From contig JAGRDI010000006.1 of assembly GCA_020432765.1 (NCBI GenBank), positions 18,268-50,998 on the forward strand: DNA of 32,731 nt, in the 5' to 3' direction. This DNA is from Anaerolineales bacterium. GTDB taxonomy: Bacteria; Chloroflexota; Anaerolineae; Promineifilales; Promineifilaceae. Below the pieces are notes generated by a model. It was not told where the DNA came from. It made no database searches and saw only the letters and a list, made by a program, of their open reading frames with translations. Both the position numbers and the translations under genes were made by a program. Below are positions 20,087 to 32,078 of the stretch, piece by piece; within the stretch, counting starts at the first letter, position 1; each line of letters opens with the position of its first letter.

Positions 20087-20809
20087 TTAACTCCCATGTT
20101 TGAGTTCACGATTTACTTCTTCGACTATTTGTTGTGCAAAATAACCTCTGATCCAATCAATCAGTGTACGGCCAGACACAAGAATGCCAATCAATGCCAA
20201 CATATTGAGTACAGCAACAATCGCGGCAAAAACAAGGAGACGTCGATTGTGACTAACTTCGCGTAACTTATCGCGTGTGTCGACAGTGCGTTTGCCTTTT
20301 TGCCGCTGTCCACTAACGGCCGTTTCCCAAAGTGGCTCTGACTTGCTATAAGTCGTATACACGGCGGTCTGTATCTGAATCTGTGCTGTTAAAGCCTTGA
20401 AAAATTTTCGTAATTGGGCGTTGGCGGTTGTACGGATAAGGCGTGGCGTTTGGGGAAGATCATTGTCATCAAGCATCAGTTCACCTTGATAAACCAAGCA
20501 TATCTGTTTTTCCCCGACATCCACAAGCTTTATATGACCGTGCGCCTGGATTGCTCCAATTGGGCCGCTGCCAACCACAGTGATGTGTAGGCTTTCGCAT
20601 TCAACAACGTCACGCAAATCAATAATGCCATTATATTGGCCGACTAGCGGCCCTTTACTAATATGCATGGCCAGATCAAATTGGCGCGAACCGAGCTGAT
20701 CCAAATGTTCACAACCGGGGATCGTTTTACAAAGCATACCCGGATCAAGCAGCATGGACCAAATTATTTCACGCGAGGCCGTAAATATATAGTCACCTTC
20801 AATTTTCAT
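20087..20809 (-). CDS. CoxG-like SRPBCC protein with C-terminal transmembrane helix (240 aa)
   Basis: The N-terminal 150 residues match the carbon monoxide dehydrogenase subunit G (CoxG) type of START/SRPBCC fold: MKIEGDYIFTASREIIW, then LLDPGMLCKTIPGCE, and a late GSGPIGAIQAHGHIKL. These folds hold hydrophobic ligands; CoxG itself recruits CO dehydrogenase to the membrane. A polar, Lys/Arg-rich linker (about 150-188) precedes one transmembrane helix (190-213), so the lipid-binding domain is tethered to a membrane. I start it at the Met at 20809, because the 13 residues upstream do not match the family. No coxL, coxM or coxS is present, so a role in CO metabolism is not supported. It precedes the SDR gene by 2 nt. 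Confidence 0.82.
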   Translation of the reverse strand: MKIEGDYIFTASREIIWSMLLDPGMLCKTIPGCEHLDQLGSRQFDLAMHISKGPLVGQYNGIIDLRDVVECESLHITVVGSGPIGAIQAHGHIKLVDVGEKQICLVYQGELMLDDNDLPQTPRLIRTTANAQLRKFFKALTAQIQIQTAVYTTYSKSEPLWETAVSGQRQKGKRTVDTRDKLREVSHNRRLLVFAAIVAVLNMLALIGILVSGRTLIDWIRGYFAQQIVEEVNRELKHGS

Positions 20810-20845
20810 AGGTTTTGGCCTTTGCAAAACTGATACACAGCGAAC

Positions 20846-20903
20846 CACAGAGAAATGAGGGAGTCTCGCCGAGAATTGGAGTGGGTTTTGTCATTTCTTT
20901 GTG
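20846..20903. repeat. Second ACCACAGAG-type hairpin repeat
   Basis: CACAGAGAAATGA (20846-20858) pairs at 12 of 13 positions with TCATTTCTTTGTG (20891-20903). The left arm shares ACCACAGAGAA with the hairpin at 4761-4814, while the inner part differs. It fills most of the 107-bp gap between the two CoxG-like genes. Confidence 0.6.
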
Positions 20904-20916
20904 CGCCTTGATTTTG

Positions 20917-21378
20917 TTAGTGTGGCGGCGAAACGGCCGTTTTTGTTTCCAGACGCGCCTTAACACATTGAAAAAATTGTTCGACAATTGTGGGCAGCAT
21001 ATTGCCTAACATTTGCAAAAACATCCGGTTTGGTGTGTTTAGTACCAGTGAAAAATCTAAAGCTGTGTGTTGTTCCATAACCGGTTTCAATATCATCTGG
21101 CCAGATGCAGATACAATCTGATTGTTTAATGTCGTTGCCAGGTTCAAATCTAAATGGGTTGGCGGAATAATCAAAACCCATTTAATCATTACCGGTACGC
21201 GCACACTGCGCTTCGCGCTTAAATGGCGTACAAGTACGATTTCATAACTATTTGGCGCTTGCAAAGCATGCCAGGATTCTAAACCTGGTGTGCATTCACT
21301 AAGAGCTTGTGGATCCAACAAACAGGTCCATACATGCTGCTGTTGTGCTTCAATATTGACCGTGCCTTGAATTTGCAT
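20917..21378 (-). CDS. Small SRPBCC (CoxG-like) protein, 153 aa
   Basis: The start MQIQGTVNIEAQQQHVW and the following LLDPQALSECTPGLESW match the START-fold CoxG type at the same places as the neighbour at 20087-20809, so the two are probably old paralogues. There is no transmembrane helix, so this version should be soluble. The C-terminal helix (MLGNMLPTIVEQFFQC) is the usual long helix that closes the hydrophobic cavity. The ligand is unknown. Its start codon overlaps the stop codon of the preceding gene (21378), which shows tight translational coupling within the leftward operon. Confidence 0.72.
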   Translation of the reverse strand: MQIQGTVNIEAQQQHVWTCLLDPQALSECTPGLESWHALQAPNSYEIVLVRHLSAKRSVRVPVMIKWVLIIPPTHLDLNLATTLNNQIVSASGQMILKPVMEQHTALDFSLVLNTPNRMFLQMLGNMLPTIVEQFFQCVKARLETKTAVSPPH

Positions 21379-21941
21379 CAGGTTTGCACCTGTTGATTTG
21401 CTTGCTGCTCAGCAAGCCAGTGGGGAAACGCAGCCAGGGCATTTACCATGAAACCATCAGCAATTTCGCGCACACGCCCTTCAGAAATACTTTTAGCAAT
21501 GCGATTCACAACCCTCCCCGGCATCATGCGCAAACCGCGCGGCCGTGGCAATTGTGCACCTAATTTGAGATGATATTCAATAAAGGATTCATCACCGGCG
21601 TCCATGAAGATCGCTTTGCTAGCAAAATCACCATAACAACTGCTCGTATTTAAGGTTGCCTCGCTGGGAACTGGCGTTTTACCTTTTAAAGGGAGAATAT
21701 GGATGATGCCATTTTCAGAATCAATGACACTTTGAACATCCGCAAACAAATTAATTGTGTATGCTCCCATTTCAACACTCCGATAATGCATGCGCAGGGC
21801 ATTCGGCGTATAGACAGTGGCTACTGTGATGTGGGGCAGAAAGATCGCAATGCGTTGGAAGTCACTAAAGAAACGAATAGCGATGCCAGGCTCAGCCGGA
21901 AAATGGAATTCGCGTTTAGTGGCTCCTTGAAGTTTAATCAT
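21378..21941 (-). CDS. DUF1997-like START-fold protein, 187 aa
   Basis: The pattern of strands, an early FFSDFQRIAIFLPHITV segment and a long amphipathic C-terminal helix suggest a START/SRPBCC fold of the DUF1997 kind; I am not certain of the family. Many residues in the predicted cavity are hydrophobic, and no catalytic motif or transmembrane segment is visible. The ATG at 21941 is preferred to a TTG two codons upstream. It lies 23 nt after phaR on the same strand, separated by a 21-bp tandem repeat, and overlaps the next gene by one base. It is therefore the third predicted lipid-binding protein in a row. Confidence 0.6.
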   Translation of the reverse strand: MIKLQGATKREFHFPAEPGIAIRFFSDFQRIAIFLPHITVATVYTPNALRMHYRSVEMGAYTINLFADVQSVIDSENGIIHILPLKGKTPVPSEATLNTSSCYGDFASKAIFMDAGDESFIEYHLKLGAQLPRPRGLRMMPGRVVNRIAKSISEGRVREIADGFMVNALAAFPHWLAEQQANQQVQT

Positions 21942-21983
21942 GGTCAATTAGCAATTGTCGCTGGTCAATTGTCAATTGGTGAC
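21942..21983. repeat. 21-bp imperfect tandem repeat between phaR and the DUF1997-like gene
   Basis: Two adjacent 21-bp units (21942-21962 and 21963-21983) share GGTCAATT, then two variable bases, then CAATTG. The phaR stop codon (21965-21967) lies inside the second unit, so the last codons of phaR are made of repeat sequence. Confidence 0.6.
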
Positions 21984-22558
21984 GGTTGTGTATTCGAATC
22001 AGTTGTACGTTTTTCGACAATGAGGCTGTCCAATTGAACAGTGAGGGCTTCAATTTGTTGATTGAGGCGGTCGATTTCATCACGCGTGGGAACACCGCGA
22101 CGCGTCAGCAAATCCTCAATCTCAGCATCTTCTGTTTCTGGCTGTGATCCGGAGCGAACACTCAATGATAACATTTTATCCCGCAAGCGCAGTCCCTCTT
22201 CTTTGGCCACTTCGCCTTTGCTAATGAGTACCTGGAACCGTCGTTCGATTTCGCGATCAACATGTTGCAATAAATCCAATGGTATCGATAGACTGCGGCG
22301 TAATGAGTTAAGCGTATCGCCACCTGATTGTACGAGGCTGGTTAAGACAGATGTGGGCAGAAAGCCGCTTTTTTTCTTTTCTTGTTCGAAGATAATTTGG
22401 GTGAGGGTAACGGCCGTTAAATCTTCTTCCGTTTGATGATCAACAACTGTGACCTCTTCACCCTCACGAATCATCTTCGCGATGCCATCTAGCGTGATAT
22501 ATTTTTTGGCCGTGGTGTCATATAGCTTGCGATTTGGATATCTTTTTATCGTTGGCAT
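21965..22558 (-). CDS. phaR: PHA synthesis regulator PhaR
   Basis: The N-terminus carries the PHB/PHA accumulation regulator DNA-binding domain: IKRYPNRKLYDT at 4-15, KYITLDGIAKMIREGEEV, VVDHQTEEDLT, and LTQIIFEQEKK. In proteobacteria PhaR represses phasin and PHA genes until it is titrated onto polyester granules. Residues 85-180 are helical, with phasin-like features (LLQHVDREIERRFQ, then LISKGEVAKEEGLRLRDKM) and a final coiled coil (TRDEIDRLNQQIEALTVQLDSL). This last segment resembles the C-termini of the two phasins upstream, so PhaR could co-assemble with them. GGAG 7 nt before the ATG fixes the start. Its own promoter carries the candidate operator at 22576-22590, so autoregulation is likely. 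Confidence 0.9.
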   Translation of the reverse strand: MPTIKRYPNRKLYDTTAKKYITLDGIAKMIREGEEVTVVDHQTEEDLTAVTLTQIIFEQEKKKSGFLPTSVLTSLVQSGGDTLNSLRRSLSIPLDLLQHVDREIERRFQVLISKGEVAKEEGLRLRDKMLSLSVRSGSQPETEDAEIEDLLTRRGVPTRDEIDRLNQQIEALTVQLDSLIVEKRTTDSNTQPSPIDN

Positions 22559-22575
22559 GAACCAGCTCCTCTCAT

Positions 22576-22590
22576 GATACAGTGCGTCAT
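22576..22590. promoter_or_regulatory. Candidate PhaR operator in front of phaR
   Basis: TGATACAGTGCGTCA is an imperfect palindrome with outer TGA/TCA half-sites. It shares ATGAYRCAGTGCRTCATTT with 23721-23739. It lies 9 nt downstream of a perfect TATAAT (minus strand, 22600-22605), that is, just after the expected transcription start, where a bound repressor would block elongation or initiation. Confidence 0.6.
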
Positions 22591-22706: not shown

Positions 22707-23225
22707 TTATGCGCCGTTGGCATTCAACTCGTCGATCTTTTTGCTTAGCGCATCGATCTGATTACTCAACTGGTCAATTTCGCTCACCGTAGGAATATTC
22801 AAGCGATGCAAGATGCCTTCAATTCGTTGGTCAACTTCTGAGGATGCTCTATCAGATGCCTTTTTGGTGGTTTCAACAACCGCCTGTCTGCGATTTTCGA
22901 GTGCTTGTTTGCGGTTTTCAAGAATATCGTTAATTAAGCTGCGGCCGTCTTGTTCAGCAATTTCACCACGATCAATCAGCCGATTCACAAAATCTTCGAT
23001 TTCTTCTTGTGCTAACGCTACCATGCCAATGCCAGCCATCAAAACGCGGCGCAGACTGTCCAACAGCGGGTTGCTGGCGTCCAAACTTTCTTCTTCTAAT
23101 ATGTCGATATCTACATCAATTTCGGCAACATCTTCAACGACCGTATCTGCTGCAACGGCCTCTGCACCGGCTTCGCTCGCGCCATTGACCTGTTGTTCTA
23201 ACTCTTGTGCTATTTCTTGTGTCAT
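22707..23225 (-). CDS. Phasin-family (PHA granule-associated) protein, 172 aa
   Basis: An acidic N-terminal third (Glu/Asp/Ala-rich, about 1-50) is followed by a phasin-type helical region: LLDSLRRVLMAGIGMVALAQEEIEDFVNRLIDRGEIAEQ spans about 55-93 and is the characteristic PhaF/PhaI-like motif. Then comes a long charged helix with ENRKQALENRRQ, ending in LHRLNIPTVSEIDQLSNQIDALSKKIDEL, a short coiled coil. Phasins coat PHA granules and control their number and size. The IPT.sEId.L...I..L ending also occurs in the phasin at 23240 and in PhaR (VPTRDEIDRL), suggesting a shared assembly element. AAGGA 8 nt before the ATG gives the start. It is co-transcribed with the upstream phasin (14-nt gap). 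Confidence 0.85.
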   Translation of the reverse strand: MTQEIAQELEQQVNGASEAGAEAVAADTVVEDVAEIDVDIDILEEESLDASNPLLDSLRRVLMAGIGMVALAQEEIEDFVNRLIDRGEIAEQDGRSLINDILENRKQALENRRQAVVETTKKASDRASSEVDQRIEGILHRLNIPTVSEIDQLSNQIDALSKKIDELNANGA

Positions 23226-23239
23226 TTTATTAATCCTTT

Positions 23240-23656
23240 CTATTCTTCTTCATCTTGGCTAAGCTCATCAAGACGTATATTTAATGTCACCAGTTTATCG
23301 TTTAGTTCGTTAAAATCTGTGGCGGTGGGAATATTAGCCCGATGCCATATCCAATCAAGGCGATTTACAACCACTTGCTGTAATTCAGTTGCCTGCTCAG
23401 TGAGCGTTTCTTGCTCGGCAGCAACCGCTGCTTCGGCCGCATCCAGCCGTGCTTGACGCTGCTGCATACGTGCATCTGCAACCTGTTCACCACGGTCAAT
23501 TAATTTATTACCGCTTTCAGCAAGTACTTTCACCAGTTTAGTTAAGCTCTCTTGTGTTAGCACGACTGCGCCTAAGCCCGCCAAAAACAGCTTGCGTGGA
23601 TTCACTGCAATTACGAGTTCTTGTCCATTTTCTTGAACTGCATTTACCTCGGTCAT
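23240..23656 (-). CDS. Phasin-like protein, 138 aa, first gene of phasin operon
   Basis: Residues near 20-60 (PRKLFLAGLGAVVLTQESLTKLVKVLAESGNKLIDRGE) match the start of phasin helices, with a hydrophobic face and the recurring LIDRGE. The middle is a long Ala/Glu/Gln coiled coil. The C-terminus has WIWHRANIPTATDFNELNDKLVTLNIRLDEL, equivalent to the endings of the neighbouring phasin and PhaR. The ATG at 23656 has a perfect GGAGGT 5 nt upstream, so a longer start at 23680 is not used. Its promoter (TTGACT, 17 bp, TATCAT) carries the candidate PhaR operator just after the transcription start. It is probably the most strongly expressed gene of the group, judged from its promoter and ribosome site. 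Confidence 0.8.
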   Translation of the reverse strand: MTEVNAVQENGQELVIAVNPRKLFLAGLGAVVLTQESLTKLVKVLAESGNKLIDRGEQVADARMQQRQARLDAAEAAVAAEQETLTEQATELQQVVVNRLDWIWHRANIPTATDFNELNDKLVTLNIRLDELSQDEEE

Positions 23657-23721
23657 AAAAACCTCCAAAATCATCCACATGTTAGTATGCTAATTTACAA
23701 TTAGATGGTACACTAGCGCCA

Positions 23722-23736
23722 TGACGCAGTGCATCA
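23722..23736. promoter_or_regulatory. Candidate PhaR operator in front of phasin operon
   Basis: TGACGCAGTGCATCA is a near-perfect palindrome (TGAYGCA, central base, TGCRTCA). It lies 5 nt after the -10 box of the leftward phasin promoter and 112 nt before the rightward repeat-protein gene, so it might affect both. It matches 22576-22590 in 13 of 15 positions. Confidence 0.62.
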
Positions 23737-23741
23737 TTTGG

Positions 23742-23848: not shown

Positions 23849-24886
23849 ATGGATCAAACAGACAATCTTCTTACAACACAAGAACAAGCTGCGCTAGAAA
23901 AAATAGCTGAACAGGGCGATACAAATGCCCAGCGTGCGCAGGCATTACTGTATATCAATGCCGGCATGCAGCATAAAGAGGCAGCCGAGGCAGCCGGACT
24001 TACTGTTGGACAAGCTAATTACGCTTTGAAAAAATTCCGTACACAGCGTTTGTTGGCTTTTCCTGGGGCGTTAGCTTATTTAGAAGAAGCAACGGCCGTT
24101 ACCAAACCAGAACCGGAACTTGCTAAACCGGTAAGCAAAACGCAAACCCGCATAGACATTCTGCTGGCAGAATTGGACAAATTAGTCGTTGATCTACGTG
24201 CTGCTTTACCAGATGCCGACAATTCACCCTATTCACCATTGCGTTTGATCGGTCTGGTGCGTGAAAATCTGAGCAAATACACACCTGAAGTGCAATTACA
24301 TATCTTAGAACAGTTTGAAGGCATGTCACGTGAAGATTTGATGGATGTTGACACATGGAAAGGCATCGCTTACATGATCGCCTATTCAGCTCAATTCCAG
24401 GTCAGCCAGACCAAAGATCGCTTGAACGCACAAATGCCACAGCCACTCAAACCAGATACAATACTGCAATTTATCAAAGATGGTCTGGATCGTCTTATGC
24501 CAGAAATCGCTAAAGACTTGGCAGGCACGCTGGAAGGGGCTTCCCGCGACGACCTAAAAGACCCGGATACCTGGAAAGGCATGGTCTATATGTTGAGCTA
24601 CTCTGCCCAATTCCAAGCGAGCCAAACCAAAGATAAACTCAACGAAACACTGCCTGGTCCAATCAAACCAGATACGCTTTGGAAATTGTTTAAAGACAGT
24701 CTCAACCGGGTAACACCAGATGTAGCCAAACAAATCATCGCCAGCTTTGAAGGCGCAACACGCGATGACCTGCTCGACCCGGATACCTGGAAGGGTGTTT
24801 GGTATATGCTCAACTATTCACTCCAATTCCAGGCTGAACAAATCAAGGTTAGACTGTTGGGTGAAGCTGAGGAAGAAACGAAATAA
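23849..24886 (+). CDS. HTH-like protein with three 72-residue repeats (345 aa)
   Basis: Residues 10-75 resemble a helix-turn-helix of the IS630/homeodomain-like kind (RAQALLYINAGMQHKEAAEAAG then LTVGQANYALKKF). After a Pro/Lys linker (about 82-100) and a helix come three tandem repeats: about 134-205, 206-277 and 278-345. Each contains a TPE/MPE segment, an acidic-basic stretch (REDLMDVDTWKG, RDDLKDPDTWKG, RDDLLDPDTWKG), then YM..YS.QFQ and a basic stretch with TKD.L in repeats 1-2. The invariant Trp are at 170, 242 and 314, an exact 72-residue period. I do not recognise the repeat. The gene is divergent from the phasin operon, has GGGAGG 6 nt before its ATG, and is followed after 1 nt by an SCP2-like gene. 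A granule- or membrane-associated role is inferred from context only. Confidence 0.8.
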   Translation: MDQTDNLLTTQEQAALEKIAEQGDTNAQRAQALLYINAGMQHKEAAEAAGLTVGQANYALKKFRTQRLLAFPGALAYLEEATAVTKPEPELAKPVSKTQTRIDILLAELDKLVVDLRAALPDADNSPYSPLRLIGLVRENLSKYTPEVQLHILEQFEGMSREDLMDVDTWKGIAYMIAYSAQFQVSQTKDRLNAQMPQPLKPDTILQFIKDGLDRLMPEIAKDLAGTLEGASRDDLKDPDTWKGMVYMLSYSAQFQASQTKDKLNETLPGPIKPDTLWKLFKDSLNRVTPDVAKQIIASFEGATRDDLLDPDTWKGVWYMLNYSLQFQAEQIKVRLLGEAEEETK

Positions 24887-24887
24887 T

Positions 24888-25298
24888 ATGCCTGTTTACA
24901 GCAGTGACCAACAATTCTATAGCTGCCTTAAAATGCTTTTCACTCAAATTGGAGAAGTTGATCCACAGGCAGCCGACCAGATTACGAAATCTAAGCTAAC
25001 CATTCGTTTTAATTGCTCGCAGCCAACTGCAGAGGTTTTGATAGACGGCCGTTCCCATCCCCTACAAATTCATTATGGTCCCAACGGCGTTAAACCCATT
25101 CTTGATATCATGCTCACTGGCGACACGTTACATGAAATTTTGCTCGGCACATTAAAGCTTTCCAAAGCAGTTGGCAGTAAACAGTTGAAACCCAAGGGGC
25201 CAATCTGGAAAGCAACCGCACTCGAACCTATATTGCACCATGCGCAAAACCTTTATCCACAAATCGTACAGGAGTGCAATCCAAACGCAGCCACATAG
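24888..25298 (+). CDS. SCP2-like sterol/lipid-carrier domain protein, 136 aa
   Basis: The protein reads as a single SCP2-type domain: LTIRFNCSQPTAEVLIDGRSHPLQIHYG (about 36-63), then LDIMLTGDTLHEILLGTLKLSKAVGSKQLKPKG, and a C-terminal helix region with ILHHAQNLYPQI. SCP2 domains carry fatty acyl chains or sterols in a hydrophobic tunnel. The true start is the ATG at 24888, 1 nt after the stop of the repeat protein, with GGAAG upstream; a longer frame from 24747 only overlaps that gene. There is no signal peptide. Translational coupling to the repeat protein suggests they work together. Confidence 0.7.
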   Translation: MPVYSSDQQFYSCLKMLFTQIGEVDPQAADQITKSKLTIRFNCSQPTAEVLIDGRSHPLQIHYGPNGVKPILDIMLTGDTLHEILLGTLKLSKAVGSKQLKPKGPIWKATALEPILHHAQNLYPQIVQECNPNAAT

Positions 25299-25407
25299 TA
25301 AAATTATCCATAAGTAGGTTCCCCCAGTTCCCCTGATTTCCTAAAACAGTATCAAAACTCAGGAGAACTCAAAACACTAAGTTTTTTACGGACAATCCCA
25401 TAATATT

Positions 25408-25420
25408 GGAGGAAGTATTG
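25408..25420 (+). promoter_or_regulatory. Ribosome site fixing a TTG start
   Basis: GGAGG (25408-25412) lies 5 nt before a TTG (25418-25420). An in-frame TTG at 25406 overlaps this ribosome site and cannot be the main start. No ATG or GTG is available near the start of the frame. Confidence 0.7.
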
Positions 25421-26641
25421 GACGGAGAGATTAATTTAAGGCCCTATCTGGACGCATTATGGTCCAAAGCACCACTCATCATTATTGTTACACTCATCGC
25501 AGCCTTTGCCGGTTTTGTGATTAGTAATTTCCTGGCACCTAACTATAAAGCCTCTGCTTTAGTTGCCCTGCGACAACCTCGCTACAACCTGGATTTTGAT
25601 TCGCGCATTCAAGTTGAAGGTGAAGATATCAAATCAGTTTACGATGCATTACCAATCCTCGCTACCAGCGATGAATTATTCGCGCAGTTAACTCAATCCG
25701 ATTTAATCACGATAGGTCCACCTTTATCATCCGAAGATTTGAGAAACGCACTAACCACAGAACAAATGGCCAAACCAACCCTCATCAAATTCAGCGCGAC
25801 ACATGGTGATCCGCAGTATGCAGCTGAACTTGCCAACGCATGGGCAATCCTATTGGTAGAGCGTGCCAATGCGGTTTATGCAGGTCAAGGCAGCGGCCAG
25901 GTCGAGTTTTTTTCCAACCAACTGCAAACGGCCGAACAAGAATTAGCTGCAGCCCAGGCAGAATTGAGCATATTTGCTGCTGCTAATGAAAAAGAAATCT
26001 TATCCAATCGACTTGAAGCGCTGCTGACCAGCCAATTCGCCCTTTTGGAAAAACAAGGTTTGTTAACACTGCTCAAGCAAGATGTGGATAGTTTACTAAA
26101 CCAGCTTGAAACAGCCCCCACAAATTCCGTTTTAGGACAAGGGGATCAACTAGCAGCACTTTTGATACAAATTCGAGCCTTTAATTCCCAATCAGAGATT
26201 CCACTGCAGATGCAAATTGGAAATGTAGAACCATCTGCAGCATCTACCACAGCTGAACAGCGCCTTTATTTAACGAATCTACAAGACACGCTTAATCAAC
26301 AAGCCTCTGCCATTGATATAGAGCTAAACATCTTAACACCCCAAATATTACTGCTGCAAAAAGATATTCAGGAAAACCTGACCATTGAAACCGAATTAAT
26401 TGATGCGGCCGAATTAGCTCGTGAGACACACACGATCCTGGCACGGAAGATGGAAGAATCAAACATTGCCAAAGGTAATGAATCAGGTCTGGTGCAATTG
26501 GCAAGCAGGGCAAGCGTGCCTACTTCACCCGCTTCACCAAACAAACTTATCAATGCTATTGCGGCTGGTTTGCTTGGATTTATTATCGTCTCAGCAGTTG
26601 TTATTGTTTGGCAATGGCGCAAAGGAGCCGTCACAGCATAA
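25418..26641 (+). CDS. Wzz-like polysaccharide co-polymerase (chain-length determinant), TTG start
   Basis: The 407-residue protein starts INLRPYLDALWSK and has a first transmembrane helix at about 18-40. A Wzz domain follows (NYKASALVALRQPRY; ELANAWAILLVERANAVYAG), then a long periplasmic or extracellular coiled coil (about 157-345). It ends in the proline motif ASVPTSPASPNK and a second helix (about 377-398). These are the parts of a polysaccharide co-polymerase that sets polymer length. No Walker A tyrosine kinase domain is attached, unlike many exopolysaccharide PCPs. It is the first gene of a rightward series with wzx, pyruvyl transferase, TPR, wzy and glycosyltransferase genes. Confidence 0.85.
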   Translation: MDGEINLRPYLDALWSKAPLIIIVTLIAAFAGFVISNFLAPNYKASALVALRQPRYNLDFDSRIQVEGEDIKSVYDALPILATSDELFAQLTQSDLITIGPPLSSEDLRNALTTEQMAKPTLIKFSATHGDPQYAAELANAWAILLVERANAVYAGQGSGQVEFFSNQLQTAEQELAAAQAELSIFAAANEKEILSNRLEALLTSQFALLEKQGLLTLLKQDVDSLLNQLETAPTNSVLGQGDQLAALLIQIRAFNSQSEIPLQMQIGNVEPSAASTTAEQRLYLTNLQDTLNQQASAIDIELNILTPQILLLQKDIQENLTIETELIDAAELARETHTILARKMEESNIAKGNESGLVQLASRASVPTSPASPNKLINAIAAGLLGFIIVSAVVIVWQWRKGAVTA

Positions 26642-26660
26642 ACGTCTTCTTGATATGGTG

Positions 26661-26698
26661 ATGTGATCACATTTTGTGTCTACAGTATGTGACCACAT
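26661..26698. promoter_or_regulatory. Two operator-like palindromes before the flippase gene
   Basis: ATGTGATCACAT (26661-26672) is a perfect 12-bp palindrome, and ATGTGACCACAT (26687-26698) is a one-mismatch copy centred 26 bp downstream. They lie in the 97-bp gap between the Wzz-like and flippase genes, 40 bp before the latter. TGTGA half-sites recall CRP/FNR-family sites, but the spacing within each palindrome is different. Confidence 0.5.
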
Positions 26699-26738
26699 AA
26701 TGCCATTCAAAATCATTGGGAAGCATTTGACGTAAAAA

Positions 26739-28298
26739 ATGAGCGAAGAAGCAGTTATCACAGTGCAGGAAGGCACTGCACCACGACGGTTTGCTGTTAA
26801 TGTTGGTTCTAACTTATTGATGCTGGGCCTCACGATGCTATCCGGCATCTGGTTCACCCAATATCTCATCGAAAATTTGGGCGTCGCGTTGTATGGGATT
26901 GTGCCCCTGGCGCTGTCTGTGACCAATTACATGAACGTGATCAATTCATCTCTTAACAGTTCTGTTGGTCGTTTTCTCACAATTGATCTAAATCATGGCG
27001 ACCATTTATCTGCCAATCGCACTTTCAATACGGCCCTCTGGTTGAGCATTGTGGTTTGTCTGCTTTTGCTGCCGGTGGTGTTGGTCGTGTCCTATCTGGC
27101 ACCGCTGTTTTTTAATGTGCCTCCAGGAAGTGAAACGGCCGTACGTTTCCTTTTCGTTGGCGTTATGCTGGCCTATCTGATCAGCATCGTGCGCAGTATT
27201 TTTAATGTATCACCCTTTGCCCACCATCGCTTCGATCTGCAAAATGCTGTTTTAGCAACGAATTTAATCATCCGTGTCGGATTGGCAGTGATTTTATTTA
27301 CACTGTTAATGCCAACCTTATGGTTTATTGGTGTGGGATCAATAGCCGGCGCGCTCATATCGACGGTTTTAGCGATTGTCATTTGGCGCTATCTAACTCC
27401 GGAATTAAAGATAGGTTTGCACTTTTTTGACCGTGAACAATTAGGCAAACTCGCCGGCATGAGTGGGTGGGTCTTAGTGACCCAGGTTGGGGCTTTGCTT
27501 TTTTTGAATATCGATCTGGTTGTGGCTAATTTGCGCCTGGGTGCTGAAGTCACGGGCCAATATGGTTCTGTGCTGCAATGGCATATCATGCTGCGAATGC
27601 TGGCAACCACAGCAACCAGCGTGCTGGCACCTATCATCATCGCCCAATATGCTCACAACAATCTCAACAAGATGGCAAGCTTGACCAGACGCTCTGTGAA
27701 GCTTTTGGGCTTGGGCCTGGCGTTTCCCATCGGCATCGTAGCCGGATTGTCGCATCCCTTGTTAAATATTTGGTTGGGACCTGAATTCACGCATTTAGCG
27801 CTGTTGCTGACCATTTTGGTGATTCATTTGTGTGTGAATACGGCCGTATTGCCCTTATTCTCTGTCCAGGCTGCCTTAAACAGGGTACGTATTCCCGGCA
27901 TAGTAACGCTTGTACTAGGCATACTCAATCTCATCCTGGCCTGGTGGTGGGCACCTTATAATTCCATAGGGATTGGCATTGCATTGGCAGGTGCATTGAT
28001 CTTGACCTTAAAAAATACGATATTCACCCCACTTTATGGCGCGTATATTCAAGATTTGCCCTGGCACACATTTTTAACGAGCCTGGTACCGGGGGTTTTA
28101 GGCACCCTCTGTATCACAGCGGCGGCTTTTTTTATTGGGCAATATTTCCAGATAGACTCCTGGATCAAGATCGGAGTTGTGGGAGCTATTGTGGGTTTAA
28201 TTTATGGTGGGGCCGCTTTTGTTATTGCGTTGAGTAAGGAAGACCGCCAATTTTTAACCCGCTTCCTGCCGCGTCTCGTTAATTCACAAAAAATATAG
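26739..28298 (+). CDS. Polysaccharide flippase (Wzx-like, MOP superfamily)
   Basis: This is a highly hydrophobic 519-residue protein with 12-14 predicted transmembrane helices, starting at about residue 16 (RFAVNVGSNLLMLGLTMLSGIWFTQYLI). The early LGVALYGIVPLALSVTNYMNV and later SLTRRSVKLLGLGLAFPIGI segments fit oligosaccharide flippases, which move lipid-linked repeat units across the membrane. Soluble loops are short. It sits between the chain-length determinant and the pyruvyl transferase, as expected in a Wzx/Wzy-dependent locus. No clear ribosome site precedes the ATG. It stops 8 nt before the next gene. Confidence 0.9.
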   Translation: MSEEAVITVQEGTAPRRFAVNVGSNLLMLGLTMLSGIWFTQYLIENLGVALYGIVPLALSVTNYMNVINSSLNSSVGRFLTIDLNHGDHLSANRTFNTALWLSIVVCLLLLPVVLVVSYLAPLFFNVPPGSETAVRFLFVGVMLAYLISIVRSIFNVSPFAHHRFDLQNAVLATNLIIRVGLAVILFTLLMPTLWFIGVGSIAGALISTVLAIVIWRYLTPELKIGLHFFDREQLGKLAGMSGWVLVTQVGALLFLNIDLVVANLRLGAEVTGQYGSVLQWHIMLRMLATTATSVLAPIIIAQYAHNNLNKMASLTRRSVKLLGLGLAFPIGIVAGLSHPLLNIWLGPEFTHLALLLTILVIHLCVNTAVLPLFSVQAALNRVRIPGIVTLVLGILNLILAWWWAPYNSIGIGIALAGALILTLKNTIFTPLYGAYIQDLPWHTFLTSLVPGVLGTLCITAAAFFIGQYFQIDSWIKIGVVGAIVGLIYGGAAFVIALSKEDRQFLTRFLPRLVNSQKI

Positions 28299-28306
28299 GG
28301 AGCCAT

Positions 28307-29506
28307 ATGGCAGGTAAAAACCGGTTAATTGCCGGCGAATCATATAGTTCAAATTTAGGGGATGGAGTCATTGCGGAATCATTAGCTTTTCTTTTTCAAC
28401 AGGAAGACCCCATTGTCGAAAACAGCTTCTTGGATATTTCTTTGCGCCAAAATTGGGGTGCCGGGGGTGGGGAACAAAACGGCCGTTTGAAAACAACCTT
28501 GCAAAGTTTACGCCACCATCTTGGTGATCGTACCTATAACCGGCTGGTCTGGCCAACGCTGAAACGCAGCCGCAGTCAGCAAGCATGGGAACCGGTCTTG
28601 CAAAACAGTTCTGCATTGATTATCGGGGGCGGGCTTTTATTGATGGATAACGACCTCGATTTTCCGCTCAAGCTTAACACTCTGGTGAAAATGGCAGTGG
28701 CGCATCAACTACCGGTTCATTTTGTGGCTTGTGGCGTCGGCCATAATCGTCCTTGGTCAAAACAAGGTTTACGCTTGATCCACGAAGCCTTGGCAGAAGC
28801 CCAAACTGTTACTTTACGCGATCAACTGTCACAAGATAAGTTAAGTGAACTCATACCGGATATCAAGACGGCCGTTACCTTCGATCCTGCTATTTGGGCA
28901 CGCGCTGTATATGGGCCACCGGCAAACCAATCAGCAGCACCGCTGATTGGTTTAGGTGTCATTCAGGTTGACAAAATCAACGCTTATAATCAAAAAAACG
29001 CCCCCCTATCGGCAGATGATATGCGTAATTTCTGGCTAAAGATCATTGCCTTATTACAGCAGCAAGACAAAAACGTTGAGCTTTTTTCCAATGGCAGCGT
29101 AAAGGATTCCGGTTTTGCCAAAGAAATCGCGGAAGCCGCATCTGCCCAATTGAGACTCACCGTCCCCGTTGCACCGCCACCACAACGGCCTGATCAACTT
29201 GTGCATACAATTAATCGTTACACAGGCGCAATTGTGTTTCGCCTGCACGCCAGCATCATCGCATCTGCTTATCGTATTCCGACTGTTGGCTTGATCTGGG
29301 ACCAAAAAGTGCATGCGTTTTATGCTGAAACCCAACGTCAGGATTTTTGCTTTGACATTTTTAGCAGCCAACCAGAAACCATTGTCAAATCACTCAATAC
29401 GGCCCTGGCAAGCGGTATAGCTGAAACTGCTTTAACGTTCTGGAAAACGAAAGCACGCCAGACCGTCACTATTCCGCTGCAAAAAGAAGATACGGTTAAT
29501 GCATGA
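28307..29506 (+). CDS. Polysaccharide pyruvyl transferase (CsaB-like)
   Basis: The 399-residue protein has the marks of the polysaccharide pyruvyl transferase family: early SYSSNLGDGVIAESL (12-26), ALIIGGGLLLMDND (about 103-116), HFVACGVG, and late RLHASIIASAYRIPTVGLIWDQKVHAFY (about 315-342). The family moves a pyruvate from phosphoenolpyruvate onto a sugar of the polymer, making it acidic. The target sugar is unknown. It is cytosolic with no transmembrane segment. GGGAG 5 nt before the ATG fixes the start, and its end overlaps the next start by 4 nt (ATGA), showing translational coupling. Confidence 0.88.
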   Translation: MAGKNRLIAGESYSSNLGDGVIAESLAFLFQQEDPIVENSFLDISLRQNWGAGGGEQNGRLKTTLQSLRHHLGDRTYNRLVWPTLKRSRSQQAWEPVLQNSSALIIGGGLLLMDNDLDFPLKLNTLVKMAVAHQLPVHFVACGVGHNRPWSKQGLRLIHEALAEAQTVTLRDQLSQDKLSELIPDIKTAVTFDPAIWARAVYGPPANQSAAPLIGLGVIQVDKINAYNQKNAPLSADDMRNFWLKIIALLQQQDKNVELFSNGSVKDSGFAKEIAEAASAQLRLTVPVAPPPQRPDQLVHTINRYTGAIVFRLHASIIASAYRIPTVGLIWDQKVHAFYAETQRQDFCFDIFSSQPETIVKSLNTALASGIAETALTFWKTKARQTVTIPLQKEDTVNA

Positions 29507-30540
29507 TGGCTGAACATTTGTACAAAGTGCCACGACGAACAACGGCCGTTAAAATAATCCTGGTCAGTTTAGTTTTTGTCGTTGTACTCCTCTTGCTGCA
29601 CAGAGAGTTTTCCTCGGTTGTTTTGCGGAATTGGGGGTACTTGTGGTTAAACCGCGCAGCGGCCGTCACCAATTCAGAAACAAGCCAAGCAGCAGCCTTA
29701 AAAGCCAGAACCAATCTGCAAACAGGACAAAAAACAGCGGATGATAAACGGCCGTTTCAATATGGACTGGGCTTTGCCGCCGCATTGCAAGGTGATGAAG
29801 CGCAGGCCTTAACACAATGGCAATCGCTGGATGATATGTTTACGGCTGCGATCACTTTCGGCCAACAAGCACTTGAACGGGGTGAAATCGAAACAGCCCA
29901 AACATGGTTCGAACGTGCAGCCAAACTCAATCCACAAGCCGCCGACCCGTGGTATTATTTGGGTTTAACAGCACTGCAAGCCAGCCAACCTACAAATGCA
30001 GCTGCGTATTTTGATCGTGCAGTAGTCGCCGCTTACACATTTTTTTTAATACCTAAAAGCGAGGTATTATGTACGCTCGGATGGTATTATCATTGGCAAG
30101 CGCCCGAACGCGACCCCATCCGCGCCGAACAATATTATTCAAACGGCTTAACAACCGATCAATTTGATACGACAATAAATAAAGTTGATTGTCTTTACAA
30201 ACGCGCACAAGTCAGGCAGTTTTATACAGAAGATTTAGCAGGCGCAGCCCAGGATTTTGGCGCAGTTATCCTATTAGACCCGGATAATTGGGCCGTGCGG
30301 TCTGAGTTGGCGTGGGTAGACTATTTACAAACAGGTGATTTGGCGACGGCCGTAGCCGTCCTCACCGACCTCCAACAACAAAAACCGGCAGATAAATGGG
30401 CTTACTGGCGTTTGGCCGATGTCTACAAACAAGCCGGTCAGAACACAAAAGCAGTCGAGATGTATCAAGCTGCACTGGTACATGATCCACAAAATCAGCA
30501 GCTGCAAACACAAATCGAGGAGTTACAAGACAAACCGTAA
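29503..30540 (+). CDS. Membrane-anchored TPR protein of the exopolysaccharide locus, 345 aa
   Basis: One N-terminal transmembrane helix (about 15-35: VKIILVSLVFVVVLLLLH) places the rest outside the membrane. Several tetratricopeptide-like units follow. The clearest are ALERGEIETAQTWFERAAKLNPQAADPWYYLGLTALQ (about 123-159), a unit near 235-275 (AGAAQDFGAVILLDPDNWAVRSELAWV), and a final WAYWRLADVYKQAGQNTKAVEMYQAALVHDPQN. TPR proteins scaffold polymer export machines. Its ATG overlaps the pyruvyl transferase stop, and a second ATG 3 nt later could also be used. It lies 8 nt before the ligase/polymerase gene. Confidence 0.85.
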   Translation: MMAEHLYKVPRRTTAVKIILVSLVFVVVLLLLHREFSSVVLRNWGYLWLNRAAAVTNSETSQAAALKARTNLQTGQKTADDKRPFQYGLGFAAALQGDEAQALTQWQSLDDMFTAAITFGQQALERGEIETAQTWFERAAKLNPQAADPWYYLGLTALQASQPTNAAAYFDRAVVAAYTFFLIPKSEVLCTLGWYYHWQAPERDPIRAEQYYSNGLTTDQFDTTINKVDCLYKRAQVRQFYTEDLAGAAQDFGAVILLDPDNWAVRSELAWVDYLQTGDLATAVAVLTDLQQQKPADKWAYWRLADVYKQAGQNTKAVEMYQAALVHDPQNQQLQTQIEELQDKP

Positions 30541-30548
30541 CAAACCAT

Positions 30549-32078
30549 ATGGCAAGCACAAAACACTCCAACCAACCAATCAGAATATCGACCAATTTAG
30601 GTTTGGGAATCATCGCAACCACCCTCACACTGGCAGCCATCAGCGTGGCGCTGTGGTTGGACATTTTGCTGCCGCTGCTCGTATTTGTACTTGCTATCAT
30701 GGTTGGCACAGCATTTCTGGCTGTTCTATGGCGCTCACCGGCCACACTGTTGATTATTTACATCATATTACTGCCAGCTTACATTTTGACCATTGCCGCC
30801 TTATACAAATTCTCCGGCTCCACCACTTTAGTGACGTTGTTCAGACCCTGGAAAGAATTTCTCGCGATTTTGTTGCTGATTTTTATCGGCATAGGCGCCC
30901 TCCATCGGTTGAAAATCACAGGTCACCTGCACAAGGTCGATCTGCTGGTTTTTGCCTATCTGCTCTTAAATCTGCTTTACTTATTTGTACCTTGGGGACC
31001 GGAATTAACCATACGATTTTATGGTTTCCGTGCCAATGTACTCTTTGTCCTGATTTATGGGTTGGGCCGACTTGTGCCCATTAGCTCCCGCCTGCAAAAA
31101 TGGATATTTGGCATCATCATTGGTGTCGGCGTCCTGGCGGCCCTGGGCGCATTAGTTGAAGTGGCTCTGCTGCCCCCAACCTGGCCAAATCTGTTAGGGT
31201 ATGCAGATTACATTCGTGAATTCTTCGGGCAGGAACCCACAGGCCATTATGGTTTGAGTTGGACTTTTGAGACATCAACCGGCTTACGCCGTCGCAGTGC
31301 CTTTTTTGCTAATCCGCTAGAGTTGGCCAGTTCGACGCTTGTCACCGGCGCTGCCGCTTTGTATCTGATGTTTGCCTACCGGCCCAAAACGATCGGCCGT
31401 TGGCTTGGTATCGCTTGCTGGGGACTAATTGCGTTGTCACTCATCCTCACGGTATCACGTGCTTCAACGTTGGCATTTGGCATTCAGACAGTTGTAGCCG
31501 CTGTTTGGCTGCGCAAGACGCGCTTTGCTTTGTTCTTTAGTGTGCTGGGTGCATTTGGGTTAATTGTCGGGGTTCTTGTCTTAGATCCTCGTTTACTTGC
31601 TTTTGTCGTCGAGTCAATTACTTTTCAAAATCCATCCATGCAAGGGCATTTACATGATTGGGGTGTTGGTTTGCAAACGATGTTCTCTGATCCATTGGGG
31701 ATTGGTTTAGGCACAAGCGGCCAAACTGGCAATCGTTTTGGTGACAGCACCAGCGGCGAAAATCAATTTTTCATCCTGGGTGTACAGTTGGGTATATTGG
31801 GTTTATTGTTGTATATCCTGATTTTATGGGGGTCAATCCATTACGCGCTTAAAGCTTACCGGCGCACGGTTGGCGCTACAGCCGCACTTTGTTTTGTAGC
31901 GGCTGCGGCAAAATTCGGTCTGCTCTTTCCTTCATTTTCAGCCCATATCGAAAATTATCTATTTGCCATGTTTGTAACCTGGTGGTTGGTGGGATTTGCC
32001 ATTCAGCAGTTAGGTAGGTTATCGGAAACGGCCGTAACCGCCCCCAACACCATACAAATTCCCCCGGAGCCTTTCTAA
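30549..32078 (+). CDS. O-antigen ligase / Wzy-like polymerase family protein
   Basis: The 509-residue protein has about 11-12 predicted transmembrane helices and the family's Wzy_C core: a large external loop (about 215-260, with GLSWTFETSTGLRRRSAFFANPLELAS), then GLIALSLILTVSRASTLAFGIQ, where the SRA segment is typical. Members polymerise lipid-linked repeat units or ligate polymer to a carrier; with a Wzx-like and Wzz-like protein beside it, a polymerase role is favoured. The C-terminus ends in a short Pro-rich tail. No ribosome site precedes the ATG, so translation may be coupled to the TPR gene 8 nt upstream. Confidence 0.88.
   Translation: MASTKHSNQPIRISTNLGLGIIATTLTLAAISVALWLDILLPLLVFVLAIMVGTAFLAVLWRSPATLLIIYIILLPAYILTIAALYKFSGSTTLVTLFRPWKEFLAILLLIFIGIGALHRLKITGHLHKVDLLVFAYLLLNLLYLFVPWGPELTIRFYGFRANVLFVLIYGLGRLVPISSRLQKWIFGIIIGVGVLAALGALVEVALLPPTWPNLLGYADYIREFFGQEPTGHYGLSWTFETSTGLRRRSAFFANPLELASSTLVTGAAALYLMFAYRPKTIGRWLGIACWGLIALSLILTVSRASTLAFGIQTVVAAVWLRKTRFALFFSVLGAFGLIVGVLVLDPRLLAFVVESITFQNPSMQGHLHDWGVGLQTMFSDPLGIGLGTSGQTGNRFGDSTSGENQFFILGVQLGILGLLLYILILWGSIHYALKAYRRTVGATAALCFVAAAAKFGLLFPSFSAHIENYLFAMFVTWWLVGFAIQQLGRLSETAVTAPNTIQIPPEPF

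Follow-up and report, generated by a model that had tools for sequence, protein, structure and literature searches.

Why should a protein made of three 72-residue repeats and an HTH-like head be encoded between phasin genes and a gene for an SCP2-like protein in a bacterium of the phylum Chloroflexota? This arrangement is found in the window, that is, the whole 32,731-nt stretch of an Anaerolineales genome (contig JAGRDI010000006.1) that was analysed here. The first-pass annotation had proposed a new granule-surface or lipid-handling scaffold. As described below, a role in lipid handling fits both an acyltransferase fusion and the lipid-related neighbours of the gene, while localization to granules is something that we would only infer, and the PHA setting implied by that proposal is not borne out.

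A three-fold repeat of an undescribed helical domain

The open reading frame at 23849-24886 (+ strand) is a genuine gene, preceded by an RBS-like GGGAGGA and homologous throughout to genes of other bacteria. Its 345-residue product consists of the HTH-like head (residues 1-83; 23849-24097), a linker helix recognized by alignment and in AlphaFold (AF2) models (residues 95-119, LLAELDKLVVDLRAAL; 24131-24205) and three DTWKG units, namely unit 1 (residues 127-198; 24227-24442), unit 2 (residues 199-270; 24443-24658) and unit 3 (residues 271-336; 24659-24856), all on the + strand; the C-terminus is acidic (EAEEETK). The exact 72-residue period over residues 127-336, first read from the sequence alone, was confirmed by comparing residues 101-345 with themselves. 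An offset of 72 gave 74 identities, against no more than 17 at all others from 60 to 84, and was also the only one with a positive mean BLOSUM62 score, so this periodicity is not due to chance. The DTWKG motif starts at residues 168, 240 and 312, placing its Trp at 170, 242 and 314 as annotated, and the QFQ of all three units and the TKDxL of units 1 and 2 (IKVRL in unit 3) are likewise present. Units 1 and 2, 1 and 3, and 2 and 3 share 34/72, 32/72 and 37/72 residues, respectively, and 53%, 50% and 60% of their DNA positions.

A profile of 39 units has ten invariant positions, and we define the DTWKG-unit family as segments of 66-72 residues with the invariant D71, D74, TWKG, Y83-M84, Y87 and Q92 (A3 numbering); the unit HMM matches the window protein three times. 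No family match to the unit was found in Pfam, NCBIfam or PDB sequences, the best E value of the profile against PDB sequences being 0.15, and Pfam searches with all 39 units gave only scattered chance matches. AlphaFold models the linker helix together with unit 1 as entirely helical (pLDDT 82.5); in the three-unit model, units 2 and 3 are of low confidence (pLDDT about 44-63), too low to support any arrangement of the repeats. Fold searches against the PDB returned nothing at E <= 0.001, either with the whole-protein model (best E 0.3) or with the model of the linker helix and unit 1 (best E 3.2). Because neither a known family nor a solved fold matches it, the DTWKG unit is an undescribed helical domain without a Pfam entry, within the libraries searched. 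This agrees with the initial failure to assign the repeat, and no confident match to a characterized domain of unrelated function has emerged. No paper among those listed for Chloroflexota phasins or droplets deals with the repeat protein. A Pfam match of the window protein to DNA_gyraseB (E 0.006) was rejected, being below the cut-off and straddling two repeats (residues 207-301), and an Rfam search gave no match.

The helices of the unit are no more amphipathic than those of shuffled sequences, so we did not adopt the reading of the unit as a simple membrane anchor. Binding to a droplet or membrane is not visible in these helices; the units may equally well dock on a protein partner.

Acyltransferase fusions and the history of the repeats

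Most homologues of the repeat protein contain two units, which follow an HTH head, a zinc-like head (CxATTKxGxxCKN...CxxH; DUF5763 in one homologue at E 0.0085, below the cut-off) or no head at all. In a second architecture, a single unit, with the linker helix kept ahead of it, is N-terminal to a PlsC-type acyltransferase domain (PF01553; E 1e-12 to 5e-17 in L015-L018). The profile search found no such domain, with its NHx4D motif, in the window protein; the fusions have NHSGQLPWD. At one locus (L021:4229-5362) the unit and the acyltransferase are on two adjacent ORFs, through either a natural split or a frameshift. We considered whether repeat protein and fusion might be mutually exclusive but rejected this, as several genomes carry both; locus L078 holds one of each, and L076 encodes a two-unit fusion.

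In total, 29 of 301 genomes sampled across the phylum Chloroflexota carry the unit. The nine loci sampled outside the class, which belong to other Chloroflexota families, all encode single-unit acyltransferase fusions directly after an SDR epimerase gene, and none of them has a phasin gene nearby. Such a distribution supports the fusion as the probable older form, with the stand-alone repeat protein presumably arising in the family of the window and its kin.

In a tree of 66 units, which is based on few columns and of which only the large splits were used, the first units (27 rows), the last units (28 rows) and the fusion units form separate sets with support of 99/97, 99/97 and 100/98, respectively. 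The duplication into first and last units thus took place before the two-unit protein spread; it is old and common to the two-unit homologues, as the first-pass annotation had held of the duplication in general. Its companion claim, that the period is under constraint, is not supported for the three-unit spacing. The period in homologues is mostly 72 but also 76 and 65, and the third unit is private to the window genome among the genomes examined; it is recent relative to the rest, because a genome of the same genus (G001; L002/L026) has two units. Unit 1 is of the first type and unit 3 of the last type, and units 2 and 3 of the window both fall among the last units in the tree. The N-terminal part of unit 2 is 49% identical to last units versus 28% to first units, and its C-terminal part leans slightly the other way (66% to first versus 60% to last, a small difference). 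Unit 2 is thus a probable chimera of the two types, a pattern compatible with unequal crossing-over close to the DTWKG core.

A conserved neighbourhood of lipid genes

The SCP2-like gene (24888-25298, +; 136 aa; PF02036, E 4.5e-6) has its ATG one base past the stop codon of the repeat gene, and an SCP2 gene directly follows in relatives, so that the coupling noticed at the outset is a conserved feature and the two genes are probably co-transcribed. The genes on the other side are all on the - strand and encode phasin 1 (23240-23680; 146 aa; PF05597, E 2.2e-11), phasin 2 (22707-23225; 172 aa; PF05597, E 1e-19), a PhaR-like regulator (21965-22558; 197 aa; PF07879, E 3.8e-28; TIGR01848, E 1.1e-25, below its curated cut-off), a DUF1997-like and possibly lipid-binding START-type protein that is syntenic in relatives (21378-21947; 189 aa; PF09366, E 0.0023, below the cut-off) and two proteins of the CoxG family, which belongs to a lipid-transport superfamily (20917-21378; 153 aa; PF06240, E 5.9e-7; and 20087-20848; 253 aa; PF06240, E 1.3e-9). 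The longer CoxG protein has a hydrophobic C-terminal segment, judging from its sequence. The repeat protein itself matches neither the phasin profiles (PF05597 / TIGR01837) that detect both neighbouring phasins nor the PhaR profile PF07879 (PHB_acc_N) that detects the regulator. Beyond the SCP2-like gene, positions 25406-32078 contain probable polysaccharide genes, among them those for a Wzz-like chain-length protein and a flippase-like protein; several relatives likewise have a Wzz-like gene after the repeat gene.

The order CoxG-DUF1997-PhaR-phasin, then divergently the repeat protein or the fusion, and then SCP2, recurs in many genomes, the acyltransferase fusion occupying the slot of the repeat protein in relatives. 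A phasin gene lies within 6 kb of 16 of the 37 repeat proteins and 3 of the 13 fusions; for the repeat proteins well under one would be expected (about 1e-27 under a crude binomial null that ignores kinship). The homologues are thus strongly linked to phasins, and the result that the first-pass annotation had named as refuting it, homologues never occurring with phasin genes, was not obtained; repeat proteins are also found away from phasins (L010-L012, L081-L085). In several genomes a large protein, often accompanied by an SDR epimerase, is encoded between the phasin gene and that of the repeat protein or fusion, and its C-terminal half matches, at scores short of the curated cut-offs, the N-terminal region of PigE (E 2.6e-50) and acyl-ACP reductase (TIGR04058, E 5.6e-17); in the window genome (G000), relatives of this reductase are encoded elsewhere (C296, C33). 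Patatins, Fe-ADH and a second SCP2 are encoded downstream in relatives. Judging from its families, this set of neighbours would provide for fatty-acyl reduction, esterification, transport and lipolysis.

The same neighbours could also serve a membrane. The units might be a protein-protein docking module that scaffolds thioester reductase, acyltransferase and SCP2 there, without any particular link to storage inclusions and with membrane or ether lipids as possible products. The reductase, epimerase and acyltransferase neighbours, the lack of amphipathicity in the unit helices and the position of the unit N-terminal to acyltransferases across Chloroflexota, at sampled loci without nearby phasins, would all suit such a scaffold. 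However, phasin, PhaR and a PhaR-type palindrome are tightly linked to the repeat gene in the window's family, and several repeat proteins have no reductase or acyltransferase nearby; we consider this reading doubtful, though by no means far-fetched.

A PhaR-type palindrome in the divergent promoter

The divergent promoter of the phasin and repeat genes is 168 bp long and contains the exact palindrome ATGACGCAGTGCATCAT (23721-23737), just downstream of a sigma70-like -10 element of the phasin gene. Its core fits the PhaR motifs of Ralstonia, YTKNTGCRNYGCANMAR (PMC12849132), and of Sinorhizobium, with its YGCRNYGCR core (PMC12542648). A second palindrome with one mismatch (22574-22590), upstream of phaR, is in a similar position to a sigma70-like -10, both -10 elements being consensus matches only. 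Most syntenic loci have the palindrome between the phasin gene and the repeat or fusion gene, and the loci of relatives, redundant ones included, contain 57 matches versus 5 in reversed sequence. At up to two mismatches, the window genome as a whole contains 19 sites versus 2 for the reversed pattern; the genes next to them include those for phasin 3, SCP2, an acyl-CoA dehydrogenase and ETF as well as amt/gltB genes. Taken by itself, the number of palindromes in the window is not significant (at least 2 matches, at up to 3 mismatches, in 30 of 100 shuffles), and our case is built on the exact match, its position, its conservation and the genome-wide count. We infer that PhaR controls the repeat gene together with the phasins.

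Two other sites in the window genome deserve mention. At L111 (G000:C118) the palindrome separates the divergently oriented genes of an ammonium transporter and a glutamate synthase, a hint that storage may be linked to nitrogen supply. At L116:1596-1979 (G000:C511) it directly precedes the gene for a small protein whose N-terminal stretch looks phasin-like by eye and which has a helix-hairpin-helix domain.

The exchangeable head

Residues 28-69 of the window protein match Pfam HTH_28/29 weakly (E about 0.06; 13.7 bits versus a cut-off of 25), while HTH_28 exceeds the cut-off in a homologue (L005, E 8.7e-8), two head paralogues also score above the HTH_28/29 cut-off, and AF2 predicts a confident helical domain over residues 11-70 (mean pLDDT 94-97). 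The original description of the head as HTH-like is consistent with these results. In relatives the same head also occurs alone with a long lysine-rich tail, and these paralogues adjoin CHAD and ParA-like genes in 2 of the 3 loci examined. Two loci (L128, L129; G044:C3, G034:C431) contain a cassette of a lysine-tailed HTH protein, a CHAD protein and a ParA-like ATPase, which is possibly a partition system for polyphosphate granules. CHAD is described as a polyphosphate-binding domain (PMC6537752), a histone-H1-like protein as spacing polyphosphate granules in Pseudomonas (PMC9239181) and bacterial lipid droplets as capable of being held to DNA by a protein (PMC5504291). The HTH head of the window protein is probably a DNA tether of this kind, holding inclusions to the nucleoid. 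Tethering would not be the core role of the family, because the HTH head is missing from most homologues.

An HTH head on a divergently arranged gene, as is typical of regulators, also raises the possibility that the repeat protein regulates transcription of the phasin/lipid locus, its head binding DNA and its units sensing the inclusion or its lipid, much as PhaR itself acts (PMC12849132, PMC12542648). Yet most homologues have a zinc-like head or none and still keep the units, the SCP2 gene and the locus, and a PhaR gene with PhaR-type palindromes is already present. A regulatory role is accordingly improbable in our estimation.

Which inclusion do the phasins coat?

Neither PF07167 nor TIGR01836 detected a PHA synthase in the window genome, and the two models matched in only a few of the 35 genomes of its family that were searched; synthases are present in G012, G015 and G020 of this family and in G053 outside it. 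Phasins were found in 48 of the 52 genomes of the family (f1). WS/DGAT (PF03007) was found in 21 of 24 family genomes, in two copies in the window genome (L106, L107); none of the 16 genomes sampled from outside the family has a match above the cut-off. One family member (G009) has a WS/DGAT gene close to a phasin gene (L105); the two in the window genome are unlinked to the repeat locus, and the palindrome is absent from both of their loci. Because the window genome is a MAG in fragments (96% complete, 5.7% contamination), a synthase might have been missed there, though not in most of the family. Roseiflexus and Chloroflexus are known to contain wax esters and also store PHA (PMC4400912). Because there is no detectable PHA synthase and there are two WS/DGAT genes, the phasins of the window probably coat wax-ester/TAG inclusions rather than PHA, and a wax-ester/TAG inclusion is the simplest reading for the family as a whole. 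That the repeat protein is a PHA-granule scaffold, as its phasin and PhaR neighbours and the few relatives with PHA synthases might suggest, is very unlikely, since, with two model families, neither the window genome nor most of the 35 family genomes searched yielded a PHA synthase, although nearly all have phasins.

Discussion

Our preferred reading is that the repeat protein is a PhaR-controlled adaptor of the inclusion surface, derived from the docking domain of an acyltransferase, with wax-ester/TAG droplets likelier than PHA granules; we give it about an even chance of being right. The working part of the protein would be the Chloroflexota helical domain formed by the linker helix and the DTWKG unit, which may at first have been a docking module at the N-terminus of a PlsC-type acyltransferase. 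This module would then have become independent and been doubled, with a third unit added in the lineage of the window. The units may dock on the droplet or on its coat of phasin and acyltransferase, the SCP2 protein from the presumed common transcript may ferry acyl lipids to the droplet, and PhaR may switch the repeat gene together with the phasin genes when inclusions form. The interchangeable head, HTH here and Cys/His zinc-like or absent elsewhere, would be a lineage-specific add-on, which in the window protein probably tethers the inclusions to the DNA and so holds them to the nucleoid. What the sequences show directly is the domain architecture, the fusion, the synteny, the PhaR-type palindrome and which synthases were or were not detected. 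More tentatively, one may picture a Chloroflexota droplet system in which phasins and PhaR serve wax-ester/TAG inclusions and a multi-copy coat adaptor of acyltransferase origin tethers the droplets to the nucleoid through exchangeable heads; as a whole, this picture is possible rather than probable.

The analysis defines a domain without a Pfam entry, which gene fusion connects with fatty-acyl chemistry. Phasin and PhaR genes, which are commonly taken to indicate PHA storage, may mark another inclusion in a large family of Chloroflexota, and claims of PHA storage based on annotation would need to be re-checked for these bacteria. The analysis also makes the building and partition of their neutral-lipid stores testable.

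Among the nearest known counterparts are those PlsC-type (LPLAT, PF01553) acyltransferases of Chloroflexota that carry the DTWKG domain at their N-terminus; they share a homologous unit and linker helix and the same cluster slot ahead of SCP2; the window protein differs from them in having three units instead of one, an HTH head and no acyltransferase domain. PhaM is a granule-nucleoid linker with a DNA-binding part and an inclusion-binding part and is found in a phasin setting. PhaF, the PHA granule-nucleoid linker (PMC5658603), likewise resembles the window protein in its phasin setting and in combining an inclusion-binding part with a DNA-binding part, presumed in our case. Unlike PhaF and PhaM, which are recognized by a phasin domain and a basic DNA-binding tail, the repeat protein has no phasin domain, an HTH head and an acidic C-terminus, and the inclusion is likely not PHA. 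MLDS of Rhodococcus, a protein of lipid droplets, keeps these attached to DNA (PMC5504291); family searches showed no sequence relation to it. Within the same bacterial family, the lysine-tailed HTH proteins encoded next to CHAD and ParA genes, whose polyphosphate setting is suggested by CHAD (PMC6537752), have a homologous head (39% identity over 75 aa to the L130 protein by BLASTP) and a lysine-rich tail where the window protein has its repeat units. What is new is thus the undescribed domain; as a kind, inclusion-associated adaptors are known.
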